From: Skeletonema tropicum
Lineage: Eukaryota; Bacillariophyta; Thalassiosirophyceae; Thalassiosirales; Thalassiosiraceae
Direction of reading: 5' to 3'
DNA: 64,000 nt
Assembly: GCA_037178625.1 (NCBI GenBank)
Contig: CM074146.1
Location: 124,001-188,000, forward strand
Shown in pieces: positions 8,988 to 51,150 of the stretch (position 1 is its first letter; every line of letters starts with the position of its first letter). Position numbers and translations under genes: made by a program. The notes under the pieces were generated by a model. That model did no database searches and was not told the origin of the DNA. It worked only from the letters and a program-made list of their open reading frames with translations.

Positions 8988-9549
8988 CAGTCGAGTAGCA
9001 CGAACAGTACCCGGGGGGGGGGTACAGAAATTTTGGCTAGGCTGAGTTCTGGGGGGGGGGTACAACTCGAAAATCACCACCTCAATGTCGACACCACCAC
9101 CACATAATGTCGGAGGACTTTGCACATGCTACTACTATGAATTGCATCTTATGTACTACTGAATTAAACGAAGCACTGGAGTGACAGTCCGTTCCATTCA
9201 TACAAGTGCAATGAATTCCAAACATACTACAAGACTGTGAAGAAAAACAGTAAACTAACTTGCGTCAAATGCAAGTCTGCTGTAGGGAACAAGATGTGCT
9301 CAAGCAAAATGTGCAAGAAATGTTGTCTTCAAGCATGACGTTCCCTGTGCTCAACACAAAAGAAAGAAGTAGTAAGGTATTCATTAAGATAGATTTGTGT
9401 TCAATGGTCCTACATAACGCAAGCGAGCGTTTACCTACTAAGAGCCCACAATTATGTCGATGAGGGGGGTACAAAACTTTACCCTAGGCTGAGATTTGGA
9501 GGGGGGGTACAAGCAAAGTTAGGGGGGTACTGTTCGTGCTACTCGACTG
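8988..9549. mobile_element. 562-bp Tc1-like MITE
   Basis: The ends are inverted repeats of CAGTCGAGTAGCACGAACAG and a few further bases, flanked by TA (8986-8987 and 9550-9551). The CAGT start with a TA duplication is typical of Tc1/mariner-type elements. Subterminal G-runs followed by TAC, plus a TTTTGGCTAGGCTGAG-like sequence, occur near both ends. A related single end lies at 15015-15100. There is no transposase gene inside. Confidence 0.8.
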
Positions 9550-10005: not shown

Positions 10006-10821
10006 TCAATCACAGTGCTCAGTATGAAAGAACCATCCTTCAGCTGCCTCCCTCTGTGGACTCTTGGTTGCATCTACAGCGGCCTGATCCGCACGTAGAG
10101 CCGCGGTAAGGTCCTCTTTGCTCAAATAATCATAGCCCTGCCCCTGCTGCTTAAACACCTCCATCAAAAAAAAAAAAAAAAATTAACGGAAATCTTAAAG
10201 TACGTCATGGTTGGCCCTCCAGGGGCGAAATTATCTACAATTATCTAGAGCAATGTCACAAGTTACTACCCTTCGAGTGTAATTAAGCAAATAACCAACA
10301 GTTTTTCCATCACCCCGGAATTAGCAATTAAACACCTCCATCAGCATTGTGATTGAATCATCAAGTCCTTGTGCTGCAGCTATGAAAAAATGTTTCACTG
10401 CTCTCTTGATGCCGTTTTTATCCAACTCGATGCCTCCAAGATAATGCCTAGCTTGGGGATTTCCACGAATAGCTGCCTCTTCAAGATGGAATATTTCCGT
10501 CTCCCTGTCCTTCGCAACACCTTGCCCGACAAGATACATAACCGCCAGCTTAAAATGCGCCCTCGCATCTCCCAGTTCAACAGCCTTCGAAAACATCTCA
10601 AATGCTGCATCATAATTTCCTTGCTTGTACTCTTCTGCTCCTTGATCGGCCATCGCAACTGGATCGTTCGCCTCCACTCTTTTCAACGTTAATTTCTTCC
10701 GTTCCGCTTCAATTTCTGGAACAGGTTTTCTACAAAACAGACAAGATGGACAGGATGGAACGAAACTTGCTTCCTGATTGTAGAGTGCTGGCCACGAATG
10801 TAAGGATGGACCACTTATCAT
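10006..10821 (-). CDS. Sel1-repeat protein with intron-like insertion (212 aa when spliced)
   Basis: Exon 1 is 10336-10821 (ATG at 10821) and exon 2 is 10006-10158, with an intron at 10159-10335. Splicing joins MLMEV to FKQQGQGYDYLSKEDL and then KSPQREAAE, which matches the tail of the paralog at 3-503. Without splicing the frame stops after MEVFNC. The N terminus keeps only the end of a RING-like finger (CPSCLFCRKPVP) before the Sel1 repeats. The MYND domain found in full family members is missing. The first residues derive from sequence resembling a Sel1 3' flank (compare 50311-50375), so this looks like a 5'-truncated, chimeric paralog. It may still be expressed, because all splice signals are intact. 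Confidence 0.75.
10159..10335 (-). mobile_element. introner-like insertion forming a GT-AG intron
   Basis: A 16-bp direct repeat (TTAAACACCTCCATCA on the plus strand; 10151-10166 and 10328-10343) flanks a 161-bp insert. On the coding strand the repeat contains GAG|GTG. The first copy therefore supplies the 5' splice site and the second supplies the AG acceptor, preceded by a run of 17 T. Paralogs at 3-503 and 50430-50590 read straight through this position, so the insert is derived. Parts of the insert recur at 49507-49556 and 49931-49957. Confidence 0.8.
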
Positions 10822-10912
10822 AACTACTTAGATTTGAGTCTCAGATATTAGACAATAGGCTTCTAAAAAGCCAAAACACAATTCACTCCAGAATAAAGTT
10901 GCCAGCAGCAGG

Positions 10913-10949: not shown

Positions 10950-11119
10950 GATAGGAATTGTAGAGTAACAAAATCAAAAAAGGAAAAGAGTGTGCGTGAA
11001 TGATAGATGGGCGCGCAAGGTTGGATTACATATAATTCAACTTTAGCAATGTTACTTCTTACTTCTTTTCTGTTCTGCTACTATTCTTGTACAAAGTAAT
11101 CTTCTATCCTACACGGTGA

Positions 11120-11575
11120 TCATTTCGCGTCTTGCGGCTGTCTGTAACCAGCATATGCCAGACCAAGCAACTCAGAGAATTCAAGATCCAACTGATCCAA
11201 AGCTGATTCATCACATTCGTCGTCAAAGTCTCCCAAAAGATCATCCATCAGTAGGAGATCTGAGTGACACTCGTAGGACACTCTTGTACGTCGCTTGATC
11301 GTAGTGCAGCCTGATAGGTTAGAATGAGACATATCGGGCTCCTCAAACCTGTACGCTGACTTGCGGACAACGGGGATAGAATAGTAGAGGAACGAGTCAT
11401 CTTGCTTCAGTGATTGGAGGTCTTCTGCACTCAGGGTACTGATATCGATTTCTATTGGTTCTGGATTGCAGGCTGCAGTAGCTGTGTGTACGGATATGGA
11501 AGAAGAAGAAGAAGCCGAGGATTGGTCCTTCTTGATGAAGGGAGTTGTGGTCTTGGTTGATCTGTCGTTGCACAT
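11120..11575 (-). CDS. small diatom-type protein, tandem copy 1 (altered C terminus)
   Basis: 151 aa. A Ser/Thr-rich N terminus is followed by IDISTLSAEDLQSLKQDD, FLYYSIPVVRKSAYR, a basic RRTRVSYECHSDLLL and an acidic DDLLGDFDDECDES tail. I recall proteins with a YYSIP motif and a nearby SxExHxDLLL motif as a diatom-restricted, multi-copy family of unknown function. A 4-bp difference close to the 3' end shifts the frame relative to copies 2 and 3. The last residues are therefore YAGYRQPQDAK instead of CAA. The promoter region is shared with copy 2. There is no signal peptide or membrane segment. Confidence 0.7.
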   Translation of the reverse strand: MCNDRSTKTTTPFIKKDQSSASSSSSISVHTATAACNPEPIEIDISTLSAEDLQSLKQDDSFLYYSIPVVRKSAYRFEEPDMSHSNLSGCTTIKRRTRVSYECHSDLLLMDDLLGDFDDECDESALDQLDLEFSELLGLAYAGYRQPQDAK

Positions 11576-12642
11576 TGTATTGTGAGGATGTAAGTAGATG
11601 TGTGACTTTTAGAAGAGTAAGTTGACAATTTAGTAGCTTGTTAGGCTTGATGGTTGAATAATTTATGCGATGTACAAAAGCTGTTTTGCTCTTGCCTTGC
11701 TGAGAGAGTTACGATTACCAATTCACTTGATTGAGGCCAAAGCGAGAGCTGACAAAGGAATAAGATTGAAGTTGGTCAGGTGCTTTGAGGGTCTCTGCTT
11801 GCAGTAAATATGTATGAATCGAAACAAGCCCAGGCTAGAAAGAAAACTTTACTTAGGTATGTAGTAACGGTGATTTAGCTGAGTGGGGCAAAGTAAACTG
11901 AGAGCTGATAAATGATGCATGCAATAAAAATCTTTTATATATTGTCTACTTATATTGAGAAGTAAACTGCCTATCTAGTCAGTGCTAGTATTTTGATAAT
12001 CAAGTACATATCTGCAGCTTTGATGTCCAATACTGAGGTATCCCCTCTCTTCTTTAAGTACGATTACATACTTTTCTACTTCTCCGTTTGAAAGACGAAC
12101 GCCGAATGACCGGTACTTACCCAATGACCGACCATACTAATTCTAGAGCCTGCATAAACAAAAACAGGTTAACCTGATCGTCAAAGACATTATCAGGTAC
12201 TGTGTTGTAGAATTACTCCGTCATGAATTATCACAGCTCACAAATTCTTCTTCTTCTCATGTTGACCTCACCTCCACGGCTAAACATAACTTCACGGCTT
12301 TATTTTCGGTCTTATTGTTGAAAGAAGTAAAACATTGTTGTGCAAAGAAATTAATCGTTTTAGAACTAGCCAACACATTCATTTGTTCCAGAGATGCAGT
12401 ATGTGAAGATGATAGAGGAGTGTGCAAGTAGTGTCTGGTGAATTCCAAATCATTGAAATAAAGGGAAGAAATCTGAAATCAGTTACTTAAATTGATTGAC
12501 ACATCGAACATGAAAAAGACGATCAGATTATGACTTAACAAGCAGATTTACTGTTACTTCTTTACTGTTCTGCTACTATTCTTGTACAAAGTAATCTTCT
12601 ATCCTACACGGTGATCATTTCGCGTCTTGCGGCTGCCTATGC

Positions 12643-13074
12643 CTATGCAGCACATGCCAGACCAAGCAACTCAGAGAATTCAAGATCCAACTGATCCAAA
12701 GCTGATTCATCACATTCGTCGTCAAAGTCTCCCAAAAGATTATCCATCAGTAGGAGATCTGAGTGACACTCGTAGGACACTCTTGTACGTCGCTTGATGG
12801 TAGTGCATCCTGATAGGTTAGAATGAGACATATCGGGCTCCTCAAACCTGTACGCTGACTTGCGGACAACGGGGATAGAATAGTAGAGGAACGAGTCATC
12901 TTGCTTCAGTGATTGGAGGTCTTCTGCACTCAGGGTACTGATATCGATTTCTATTGGTTCTGGATTGCAGGCTGCAGTAGCTGTGTGTACGGATATGGAA
13001 GAAGAAGAAGAAGCAGAGGATTGGTCCTTCTTGATGAAGGGAGTTGTGGTCTTGGTTGATCTGTCGTTGCACAT
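12643..13074 (-). CDS. small diatom-type protein, tandem copy 2
   Basis: 143 aa, with the same features as copy 1: the SAEDLQSLKQDD helix, YYSIP motif, SYECHSDLLL motif and acidic tail. It ends GLACAA, as in copy 3. It differs from copy 3 by one Asp to Asn change in the tail (MDNLLGD) and lacks copy 3's two-residue Asn-Lys insertion near residue 15. It starts at an ATG with the same upstream sequence as copy 1. Confidence 0.75.
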   Translation of the reverse strand: MCNDRSTKTTTPFIKKDQSSASSSSSISVHTATAACNPEPIEIDISTLSAEDLQSLKQDDSFLYYSIPVVRKSAYRFEEPDMSHSNLSGCTTIKRRTRVSYECHSDLLLMDNLLGDFDDECDESALDQLDLEFSELLGLACAA

Positions 13075-14141
13075 TGTATTGTGAGGATGTAAGTAGATGT
13101 GTGACTTTTAGAAGAGTAAGTTGACAATTTAGTAGCTTGTTAGGCTTGATGGTTGAATAATTTATGCGATGTACAAAAGCTGTTTTGCTCTTGCCTTGCT
13201 GAGAGAGTTACGATTACCAATTCACTTGATTGAGGCCAAAGCGAGAGCTGACAAAGGAATGAGATTGAAGTTGGTCAGGTGCTTTGAGGGTCTCTGCTTG
13301 CAGTAAATATGTATGAATCGAAACAAGCCCAGGCTAGAAAGAAAACTTTACTTAGGTATGTAGTAACGGTGATTTAGCTGAGTGGGGCAAAGTAAACTGA
13401 GAGCTGATAAATGATGCATGCAATAAAAATCTTTTATATATTGTCTACTTATATTGAGAAGTAAACTGCCTATCTAGTCAGTGCTAGTATTTTGATAATC
13501 AAGTACATATCTGCAGCTTTGATGTCCAATACTGAGGTATCCCCTCTCTTCTTTAAGTACGATTACATACTTTTCTACTTCTCCGTTTGAAAGACGAACG
13601 CCGAATGACCGGTACTTACCCAATGACCGACCATACTAATTCTAGAGCCTGCATAAACAAAAACAGGTTAACCTGATCGTCAAAGACATTATCAGGTACC
13701 GTGTTGTAGAATTACTCCGTCATGAATTATCACAGCTCACAAATTCTTCTTCTTCTCATGTTGACCTCACCTCCACGGCTAAACATAACTTCACGGCTTT
13801 ATTTTCGGTCTTATTGTTGAAAGAAGTAAAACATTGTTGTGTAAAGAAATTAATCGTTTTAGAACTAGCCAACACATTCATTTGTTCCAGAGATGCAGTA
13901 TGTGAAGATGATAGAGGAGTGTGCAAGTAGTGTCTGGTGAATTCCAAATCATTGAAATAAAGGGAAGAAATCTGAAATCAGTTACTTAAATTGATTGACA
14001 CATCGAACATGAAAAAGACGATCAGATTATGACTTAACAAGCAGATTTACTGTTACTTCTTTACTGTTCTGCTACTATTCTTGTACAAAGTAATCTTCTA
14101 TCCTACACGGTGATCATTTCGCGTCTTGCGGCTGCCTATGC

Positions 14142-14579
14142 CTATGCAGCACATGCCAGACCAAGCAACTCAGAGAATTCAAGATCCAACTGATCCAAAG
14201 CTGATTCATCACATTCGTCGTCAAAGTCTCCCAAAAGATCATCCATCAGTAGGAGATCTGAGTGACACTCGTAGGACACTCTTGTACGTCGCTTGATGGT
14301 AGTGCATCCTGATAGGTTAGAATGAGACATATCGGGCTCCTCAAACCTGTACGCTGACTTGCGGACAACGGGGATAGAATAGTAGAGGAACGAGTCATCT
14401 TGCTTCAGTGATTGGAGGTCTTCTGCACTCAGGGTACTGATATCGATTTCTATTGGTTCTGGATTGCAGGCTGCAGTAGCTGTGTGTACGGATATGGAAG
14501 AAGAAGAAGAAGCAGAGGATTGGTCCTTCTTGTTCTTGATGAAGGGAGTTGTGGTCTTGGTTGATCTGTCGTTGCACAT
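14142..14579 (-). CDS. small diatom-type protein, tandem copy 3
   Basis: 145 aa, with the same motifs as copies 1 and 2 plus an NK insertion (KNKKDQ) in the N-terminal region. Its upstream sequence is alignable for only about 230 bp and is clearly diverged, in contrast to copies 1 and 2. Copy 3 therefore probably keeps the ancestral promoter junction, while copies 1 and 2 arose from a later duplication. Regulation may differ between them. Confidence 0.75.
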   Translation of the reverse strand: MCNDRSTKTTTPFIKNKKDQSSASSSSSISVHTATAACNPEPIEIDISTLSAEDLQSLKQDDSFLYYSIPVVRKSAYRFEEPDMSHSNLSGCTTIKRRTRVSYECHSDLLLMDDLLGDFDDECDESALDQLDLEFSELLGLACAA

Positions 14580-15014
14580 TGTATTGTGAGGATGTAAGTA
14601 GTTGTGTGACTAATAGAGAAGTAAGTTGACAATGTAGAGCTTGTTAGGCTTGATGGTTGAATAATTTATGCGATGTACAAAATGCTGTTTTGCTCTTGCC
14701 CTGTTGACAGAATTACGATTACCATACTTCATCGCGCTTGATTGAGGCCAAAGCTAGAGCTGACAAAGGAACGAGTCAGCTGCTTCGAGGCTCTCTGCTT
14801 GTAGCAAGCCGAGCTGGTCCGGTCTAGTAAGTAGTAACTAGATCGGTATAAACCACCAAGCGCCAGGACGGTGTCATCCGTAGAACTTCTACGTAGGAAT
14901 TCTGTGATAACCCAAGTACCTTTTTTGCCCGCCTGAGCCATTTTGGAACAGCACCCGGGCGGGTGCCAAACTGAAAATTCCGTCCGCCGATCGCGATTTT
15001 GCTTTTTGCTTTGG

Positions 15015-50010: not shown

Positions 50011-50429
50011 ACTACAAGAGAACGCAGTGAGCACTTTCAATTATCATTTTCCTTAGTCAAAAGAAGAGCAATCACTTCTCTTTAGCGACAAAGAACGAAA
50101 GTGGCCAAGCTAGCTGTGCGCCATTGATTACAACACATTTTTTTGTGCTTTGATACATATCGTTGGTTGAGGTGGTTGCTTGTTCACTCTGTAAGGGAGG
50201 CCCCACTGATACGAGAATACTTGGGGTCTTTGAAATATTACGTTACGTTTGATCATAAAGTCAGATAATAGCTACGAAGAACTTAGGAACGAATGCATTT
50301 GCTAAAGCAAGAGAGCTGGCCACGAATGAAAGGGTGGAACGCTTATCATTATTACTTTGATTTGTGTCTCGATCACTCCTAGGATTTTCTTTTGTTTTGT
50401 CTTTACTTGTGTAAGAATGCCTTTATTTC

Positions 50430-50870
50430 TCCAATTCTTTGGCTGCCTCCCTCTGTGGACTCTTTGTTGCATCTACAGCGGCCTGATGCGTAGAGTAGCA
50501 AGGTTCCCTTTGCTCACAATCCCCTGCTTAAACAACTCCATCAGCATTTTGATTGGACAAGATGATACTAATGAAGCTTTGTGATTGGCAACACAGCATC
50601 CGCTACAAATAACTTTACTGCAACAATTGATTAAGGTTGATTTCGTTACATCAATCTTGGTTAAGGGGTCATGCAGATCGGACAGTCACCAAGTTGACTG
50701 CTTTCCGGTTGCTTGAATAATAATTCGTCACGTATTTCAGCTGCTCGTATTTTGCACGCTTCTTCATGCTCTGATTTGTGATCCATCTGGCAAGCATCAC
50801 TGCAATATTGAACGAGATCGCAATGATCACAATTCTTCAACTTGATGTCATCAACTTCCGCGATGCCGCA
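50430..50870 (-). pseudogene. MYND-RING-Sel1 pseudogene, main part (continues at 58728-58780)
   Basis: Joined across Copia-3, the frame runs from an ATG at 58780 (MSEVKEMDTSIISCASCG) into IAEVDDIKLKNCDHCDLVQY and CSDACQMDHKSEHEEAC, a MYND-type zinc finger. AAEIRDELLFKQPESSQLGDCPIC follows. A one-base shift follows at about 50665. The RING-like part (NCCSKVICSGCC, SSCP) is then fused directly to MLMELFKQG and the SPQREAAKE tail, so the whole Sel1 repeat array is deleted. It shows what an intact member of this family looks like, and it lacks the intron insertion of the 10-kb paralog. Confidence 0.75.
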
Positions 50871-51150
50871 ACAAGAAGGACGTCGATACTGATAGTTCCA
50901 TTTGAACAGAGGTAATAGTGCAATCGCTGCGGAGTGAATACGATAGTATTGCTTAACATATATCTACTTGGTTATTAATGAAATCTACGTGTAAACAAGC
51001 GCATGGGAAACTCCGCTACTTCGAGAGAGAAGTAGCCTGAAAACCCACACGATGGTCTTCTGACACCAGGTTGACACCTTTGGCGATCAACAGAGAAACC
51101 ATCTTATTTGTGTCGCTAAAGACACATCTGAATCACGGACACCTCCGTCA
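50871..51150 (-). repeat. Copia-3 LTR, 3' side of the element
   Basis: 280 bp, ACAAGAAGGACGTC ... CCTCCGTCA on the plus strand. It differs from the other copy by small changes such as a 2-bp GA repeat. Confidence 0.9.

Follow-up and report, generated by a model that had tools for sequence, protein, structure and literature searches.

A truncated, T-tailed SINE-like insertion as a candidate intron in a Sel1 gene copy of the diatom Skeletonema tropicum

Introduction

The origin of introns is an old question, and few cases have been caught soon after the event. The locus considered here lies in a stretch of 64,000 nucleotides from the diatom Skeletonema tropicum (contig CM074146.1, positions 124,001 to 188,000; hereafter the window), in which a gene copy of the Sel1 family is interrupted by an insert flanked by direct repeats. 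A preliminary description of the window regarded this insert as introner-like, i.e., as an element that makes its own intron, and proposed that an intron had been gained by transposition. Two questions arise from this proposal. Could the insert be removed exactly by splicing, and does it belong to a family of elements that spreads as introns?

The insert and the intron it would form

The interrupted gene lies on the minus strand. The 16-bp direct repeat TTAAACACCTCCATCA is present at 10151-10166 and at 10328-10343, the two copies being identical at 16 of 16 positions. Read along the gene strand, the order is the upstream duplication (10328-10343), an element body of 145 bp (10183-10327), a run of 17 T (10166-10182, seen as an A-run on the plus strand) and the downstream duplication (10151-10166). 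The insert beyond the first repeat, T-tail plus body, amounts to 161 bp. This size had been given correctly; however, it is not the natural length of the element, because the copy is truncated and its body, SINE-like and on the minus strand, represents the 3'-terminal 145 bp of a form of about 306 bp.

On the gene strand, each duplication reads TGATGGAG|GTGTTTAA and includes GAG|GTG. Exact splicing is predicted because the 16-bp duplication holds this motif. The upstream duplication would supply the donor, with a candidate 5' splice site GAG|GTGTTT at 10336|10335, and the downstream duplication would supply the first AG past the T-tract, with a candidate 3' splice site at 10159|10158. The 3' end of the element, CCGTTAAT (10182-10189, minus strand), together with the T17 tail would supply the putative branch point and the predicted polypyrimidine tract. 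The TTAAT of this 3' end, located some 24 nt upstream of the predicted 3' end of the intron, presumably fits the yUnAy branch point, and we take the donor to be good on its exon side and weak at +5, where there is no G. The T-tailed end of the element itself carries no AG.

The intron predicted from this geometry runs on the minus strand from 10335 to 10159 (177 nt, GT-AG, phase 0 at GAG|GTG), and its ends are GTGTTTAA...TTTTGATGGAG. The predicted splicing would remove the insert together with one of the two duplications and recover the original codons, the exon join giving ...TMLME^VFKQQGQGYDYLSKEDLTAALRADQAAVDATKSPQREAAEGW... in a continuous frame of 212 aa, with a net change of 0. The insert is thus flanked by a duplicated AGGT with the reading frame kept, and the geometry initially described, i.e., identical 16-bp repeats holding GAG|GTG, a terminal run of 17 T and a removal of 177 nt that rebuilds the frame, is borne out. 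It should be emphasized that the restoration of the frame carries little weight: so recent an insertion has left the downstream exon no time to decay, and about 123 residues are missing from the N-terminus of the gene copy. The fold predicted for the 177-nt candidate intron is unremarkable (z -0.64). A second candidate intron, marked by TTTTGTAG near 10728, was dropped, as the paralogs align through it.

The genome searched is an assembly of 78.4 Mb in 125 contigs (designated C hereafter), in which the window locus is present twice, on C20 and C62. The C62 twin shares 99.9% identity with it over 3.2 kb and carries the same duplication, with a tail of T20 versus T17. According to the published account of the S. 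tropicum assembly, allelic redundancy may account for some of its contigs, and SINEs make up 0.065% of the genome (PMC11032307); the twin locus on C62 agrees with the former statement.

The element family

A genome search found the element to be multi-copy, as the proposal of transposition had supposed. Its 20-bp 3' end (tail end) has 245 exact matches in the genome, the reversed control having 0, and a search with a 35-bp core, two mismatches being allowed, gives 227 matches. Comparison of 38 fetched loci indicates that the T-tract end is fixed whereas the opposite end is variable, the longest form reaching about 306 bp.

Structure was studied in a sample of 48 distinct copies, taken in listing order from C1 to C6 (loci L009-L038 and L080-L099; 50 were fetched and 2 dropped as flank duplicates). 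Copy lengths in this sample range from 37 to 306 bp with a constant T-tailed end, 14 copies being full-length and 34 truncated. Target duplications of at least 9 bp (9-23 bp, median 16.5) were recognised for 20 of the 48 copies and none of at least 9 bp for the other 28. They accompany 12 of 14 full-length copies versus 8 of 34 truncated ones (Fisher p 1.9e-4), and T-tail length shows no significant relation to the presence of a duplication. The lack of a duplication of at least 9 bp in 26 of 34 truncated and 2 of 14 full-length copies perhaps reflects a second integration route.

The full-length copies are very similar to one another. Among 19 full-length rows compared with the reference L031 (the rows include L031 itself, L008 and L096 are one locus, and most compared copies were chosen by exact core match, which favours young copies), 18 show 99.3-100% identity and one shows 95.8%. 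The 145-bp body found in the window is 100% identical to another dispersed copy. The plain reading of these sequences is that the SINE-like family was recently active.

Full-length copies begin with GGTGGTGTGGTGTAGTGG, which contains many donor-like GTs. Two stretches of the 5' end, GTGTAGTGGTATC and GGGTTCGAGTC, are by eye what we take to be likenesses of the Pol III boxes A and B. No tRNA was found by ARAGORN in three loci or by Rfam in two loci. Comparison of the flanks (up to 1 kb) of the fetched copies disclosed no partner LINE; those flanks that are similar correspond to satellite-like arrays, to loci that are duplicated and to a few matches that are short or unexplained. Judged by its sequence, the element is likely a tRNA-derived, T-tailed SINE. 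Truncation at the end opposite the T-tract, together with duplications of variable length, suggests mobilisation by target-primed reverse transcription, which would start from the T-tailed end. Pairs of copies in opposite orientation within about 200 bp were also seen at C7:1172090-1172309 and C6:3545993-3546070.

Empty sites and condition of the host gene

The host gene belongs to a large MYND/Sel1 family, for which a first look gave 388 candidates, 150 being scored. A single open frame runs uninterrupted across the site in 17 of the 18 paralogous loci examined by alignment (L041-L058, which include duplicate pairs, e.g., L043/L044 and L045/L046); the exception, L049, has a stop within its match. 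The site is thus without an intron in these 17 loci of the same genome; the sign of an old intron named in the preliminary description was a homologous intron in distant relatives. The joined reading is carried by all 120 of the homologous proteins listed (the best 120 of 1029), which show the normal reading and not the absence of an intron from their genes. The closest named homologues of the gene product are from Skeletonema.

Two paralogs within the window had been offered as empty sites. The one at the left end, given as 3-503, stands, since a plus-strand paralog reads straight through the site at 12-494. The other, given as 50430-50590, is not an empty site because the site-bearing region has no match there. 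This paralog (50957 to 50434, minus strand) matches only residues 28-135 and 291-308 of the reference, the site being at residue ~272. The stretch 50310-50957 appears as a Sel1/MYND paralog without match to reference residues ~136-290, and is likely a deleted copy. Outside the window, a region of C7 at ~2.98-3.91 Mb holds well over half of the listed Sel1 matches, forming a very large cluster in which most Sel1 genes have a single frame.

The interrupted copy is itself a remnant, a point absent from the preliminary description. In its nearest paralog, L041, the open frame spans 310 codons and matches both MYND and Sel1. The first part of the remnant (10336-10780, minus strand) corresponds to residues ~124-272 of L041, with 68-70% identity and a Pfam Sel1 match at E 1.2e-9, and the second part (10033-10158, minus strand) to residues ~273-309. 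The copy begins in a cysteine-rich stretch, at about residue 124 of L041, and has lost the ~123 preceding residues together with the native start. The missing N-terminal part is absent upstream, and within the window an N-terminal match is given only by the second paralog (50957-50584).

The break at which the N-terminus was lost is marked by sequence resembling the 3' flank of a Sel1 paralog (10782-10842, minus strand), fused to codon ~124. Read from 10842 to 10782, it matches sequence located 0-53 nt past the stops of L046, L042 and the 50-kb paralog of the window, L045 giving the same match. For example, 56 bp are 89% identical to L046, 24 nt past the L046 stop, and 61 bp are 85% identical to the flank of the 50-kb paralog. 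Since these 61 bp upstream match paralog 3' flanks, a deletion or an unequal exchange probably fused such a flank to the Sel1 remnant. It is in this former 3' flank that the frame has its first methionine. Compared with L041 over 123 codons, dN/dS is 0.203/0.358 (~0.57) and the remaining frame is open. Constraint on this gene copy is weak at best, and the copy may be a pseudogene without transcription.

Insertion sites and splice solutions of other copies

If the family made introns through AGGT in its targets, this motif should be common in the duplications. AGGT is found 3-33 nt past the tail end in 21 of the 245 copies of the genome, and it falls inside a recognised duplication in three of these 21, namely the window locus, its C62 twin and C19:1517606 (two loci, the twin aside). 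At C19:1517606, the longer open frame is on the opposite strand (127 versus 71 codons). A search for copies inserted in genes at AGGT, in sense orientation and with duplications, which had been suggested as a check of the introner proposal, thus returns the window locus (C20, C62) as the only one among 245 copies that combines AGGT inside a duplication, sense orientation and an open frame.

The sample gives a similar picture. AGGT occurs in the 3-33-nt interval of 8 of the 48 sampled copies, somewhat above the mean of 5.1 over the 256 tetramers, so that a weak preference may exist. As many as 48 of the 256 tetramers score at least as high as AGGT, and scores of 2-12 are obtained for the twelve tetramers composed of the same letters. 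The genome-wide rate, 21 of 245, is below that of the sample. Within duplications of at least 9 bp, AGGT occurs in 0 of 20 sampled copies, 1.0-1.4 being expected. Neither the 48-copy sample nor the 245 copies genome-wide display a clear enrichment of AGGT beside the element.

Insertions in open frames (at least 150 codons across the rebuilt empty site) were counted among the 20 sampled copies with a duplication, the other 28 of the 48, without recognised duplication, allowing no empty site. Five are in sense orientation (L031, L082, L089, L096 and L098) and two in antisense (L019, and L095 with 171 codons); this 5:2 ratio is not significant (two-sided binomial 0.45, by hand). Of the six frames compared with Pfam, that of L098, a peroxidase, is the only one past a curated cut-off (54 bits versus 27). 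L096 gives a helicase match below threshold, and no Pfam match was found for L031, L082, L089 and L019. Among the copies without duplication, open frames are present on both sides in L028, L080 and L099 (sense) and in L035 (antisense).

Splice solutions were enumerated as GT-AG pairs with donors up to 60 nt from the 5' edge of the element and acceptors up to 40 nt from the tail. Rebuilding of the original codons is obtained for the window copy only, the five other sense insertions having no such solution. For L031 and L096, there are solutions with a net change of zero in which element codons replace original ones, and L031 also has an in-frame solution, with a donor at the 5' edge of the element and an acceptor in the duplication, that adds one codon. 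Such options are easily obtained by chance, since the GT-rich 5' end provides 15-19 in-frame options each for L031, L089 and L096. The sole solutions of L082 and L098 delete 5 or 10-11 codons. The lack of clean solutions at the five sense insertions indicates that SINE copies do occupy open frames without clean splicing. Inexact splicing may occur at copies other than that of the window.

Some of these loci deserve a mention of their own. At C6:725073 (L098), a 43-bp truncated copy with a T15 tail and a 16-bp duplication lies in sense orientation in the peroxidase frame, with no clean splice solution. Twelve loci were inspected by eye for other copies present as introns, and two of them, L026 and L029, were not counted. 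At L026 (C2:4413614), a copy of 37 bp that has no duplication lies 19 nt beyond the AACAG|GTAATT at which an open frame ends; this copy could lie inside a real intron, or the frame could merely end at a stop codon. At L029, oxidoreductase-like by eye, the frame in which the copy lies is also shifted upstream.

Weighing the explanations

The number of exactly spliceable copies expected by chance can be estimated roughly. Five sense-in-frame copies among 48 scale to ~25 among 245. The density of AGGT in the five sense frames and that of the window, 11 in 4782 positions, corresponds to 3.0% per 16-bp duplication, the uniform rate being 5.1%. This gives 0.8-1.3 exactly spliceable copies by chance, or ~0.2-0.3 if only the curated gene is counted, and one is seen. 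The presence of AGGT in the target is most likely due to chance, in which case the insert would be an isolated candidate intron, not made by a family dedicated to intron formation. The reading that we propose, with a rough probability of 0.5, is that a 5'-truncated, T-tailed element of ~245 copies, likely a tRNA-derived SINE, lies in a 5'-truncated Sel1 copy, in which it would likely form an exact 177-nt intron if this copy is transcribed. A plain disruption is a serious, if tentative, competitor. A SINE would then have inserted in a Sel1 copy that was dead or dying, the locus being silent or the insert retained, and GAG|GTG would be irrelevant. The loss of the N-terminal residues and native start agrees with such a history, as do the other copies lying in open frames without clean splice solutions, an insert so young that the downstream frame carries no information, and the ~0.2-1.3 exactly spliceable sense-in-frame copies expected by chance. 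However, the donor, branch point, T17 and first AG align well, which makes the predicted splicing plausible if transcription occurs, and 177 nt is not far from the mean intron length of 254 bp given for S. tropicum (PMC11032307).

That the T-tailed SINE forms a true introner family appears unlikely. Such a family would spread as introns, its 3' end providing the branch point and pyrimidine tract and the donor coming from the GT-rich 5' end or from the duplication. The 3' end does resemble a near-complete acceptor module, GGTGGTGTGGTGTAGTGG offers many possible donors, L031 has its solution adding one codon, and sense insertions outnumber antisense ones five to two among the 20 sampled copies with duplication. 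However, exact restoration is limited to one locus among 245 copies, AGGT is not clearly enriched, the orientation bias is not significant, the in-frame options of L031, L089 and L096 are easy by chance, and the solutions of L082 and L098 only delete 5-11 codons. The term introner-like thus does not suit the family, which displays the exact intron geometry in an open frame at a single locus and no clear AGGT preference. What persists of a gain by transposition is a recent insertion of a multi-copy element, with a target duplication and absent from paralogous loci; the idea of an intron-making family is not supported. A broader proposal, rather doubtful in our view, is that the 3' end of this diatom retroposon acts as a portable acceptor module, sense insertions becoming introns that would be exact at AG|GT duplications and add or remove a few codons when the donor is taken from the GT-rich 5' end. 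If true, it would represent a reverse-transcribed, SINE-type source of introns observed shortly after an insertion, in contrast to introners that resemble DNA transposons. An old intron whose terminal repeats arose by chance is highly improbable: intron ends are often alike through AG|GT, but a duplication of 16/16, a body of 145 bp that is 100% identical to a dispersed copy and 17 of 18 paralogous loci without interruption at the site argue against it.

Relation to known routes of intron gain

The window insert, as proposed above, is a candidate for a known route of intron gain, the insertion of a transposon into AGGT, for which Table 1 of a review lists 35 events in Oryza, Drosophila, Oikopleura and Zea (PMC3443670). 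The likeness to this route lies in the AGGT target, the flanking duplications that give both splice sites and the coding sequence unchanged after splicing. By contrast, splicing at the present locus is only predicted, the gene copy is truncated, and the T-tailed element adds a branch-point/pyrimidine module.

Introner families comprise from 5 to >2,000 introns per genome, most of these families being regarded as consistent with DNA transposition (Gozashti 2022, PMC9860276). According to the same source, introners of Florenciella co-opt both splice sites from the insertion site (PMC9860276). The present element is also multi-copy and would also take its splice sites from the target. However, duplications of 9-23 bp, 5' truncation and a T-tail indicate a retroposon, and a single locus fits the intron geometry. 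The words SINE, diatom and Skeletonema are absent from the main text of that article (PMC9860276). At the level of titles and abstract openings, no SINE-derived intron of a diatom was found among the papers listed by literature searches, which is no proof of absence.

Other parallels come from plants. p-SINE1 has a T-rich 3' end, and Iwamoto is said to have described, in 1998 and 1999, a p-SINE1-like intron in the rice catalase gene CatA. This case is alike in being a SINE-like intron in a coding gene. The SINE and the lineage are different, and the rice case is a reported catalase intron whereas the present one is a prediction in a truncated copy. More generally, the T-tailed tRNA-derived SINEs of plants have a box A/B-like 5' end, a T-stretch at the 3' end and variable target duplications. 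The diatom element appears alike in these traits, at the level of general description.

If spliced, the insert would be a young example in which the element, its target duplication, the empty sites and the splice signals are all visible, and would point to a retroposon source of an intron in a diatom. Furthermore, the estimate made above provides a rough baseline, according to which a randomly inserting T-tailed SINE would yield by chance, in this family, about one perfectly spliceable insert. This could serve as a yardstick for introner claims.

Other features of the window

Two other repeated structures are located near the Sel1 remnant. A segment of ~540 bp (9000-9537) has exact terminal inverted repeats, ACGAACAGTACCC, and several G-runs adjoining GTAC, and is MITE-like. 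At 11059-14807, a tandem unit of ~1.5 kb is present in about two and a half copies that are 92-99% identical, two of them containing an open frame of 154-162 aa.
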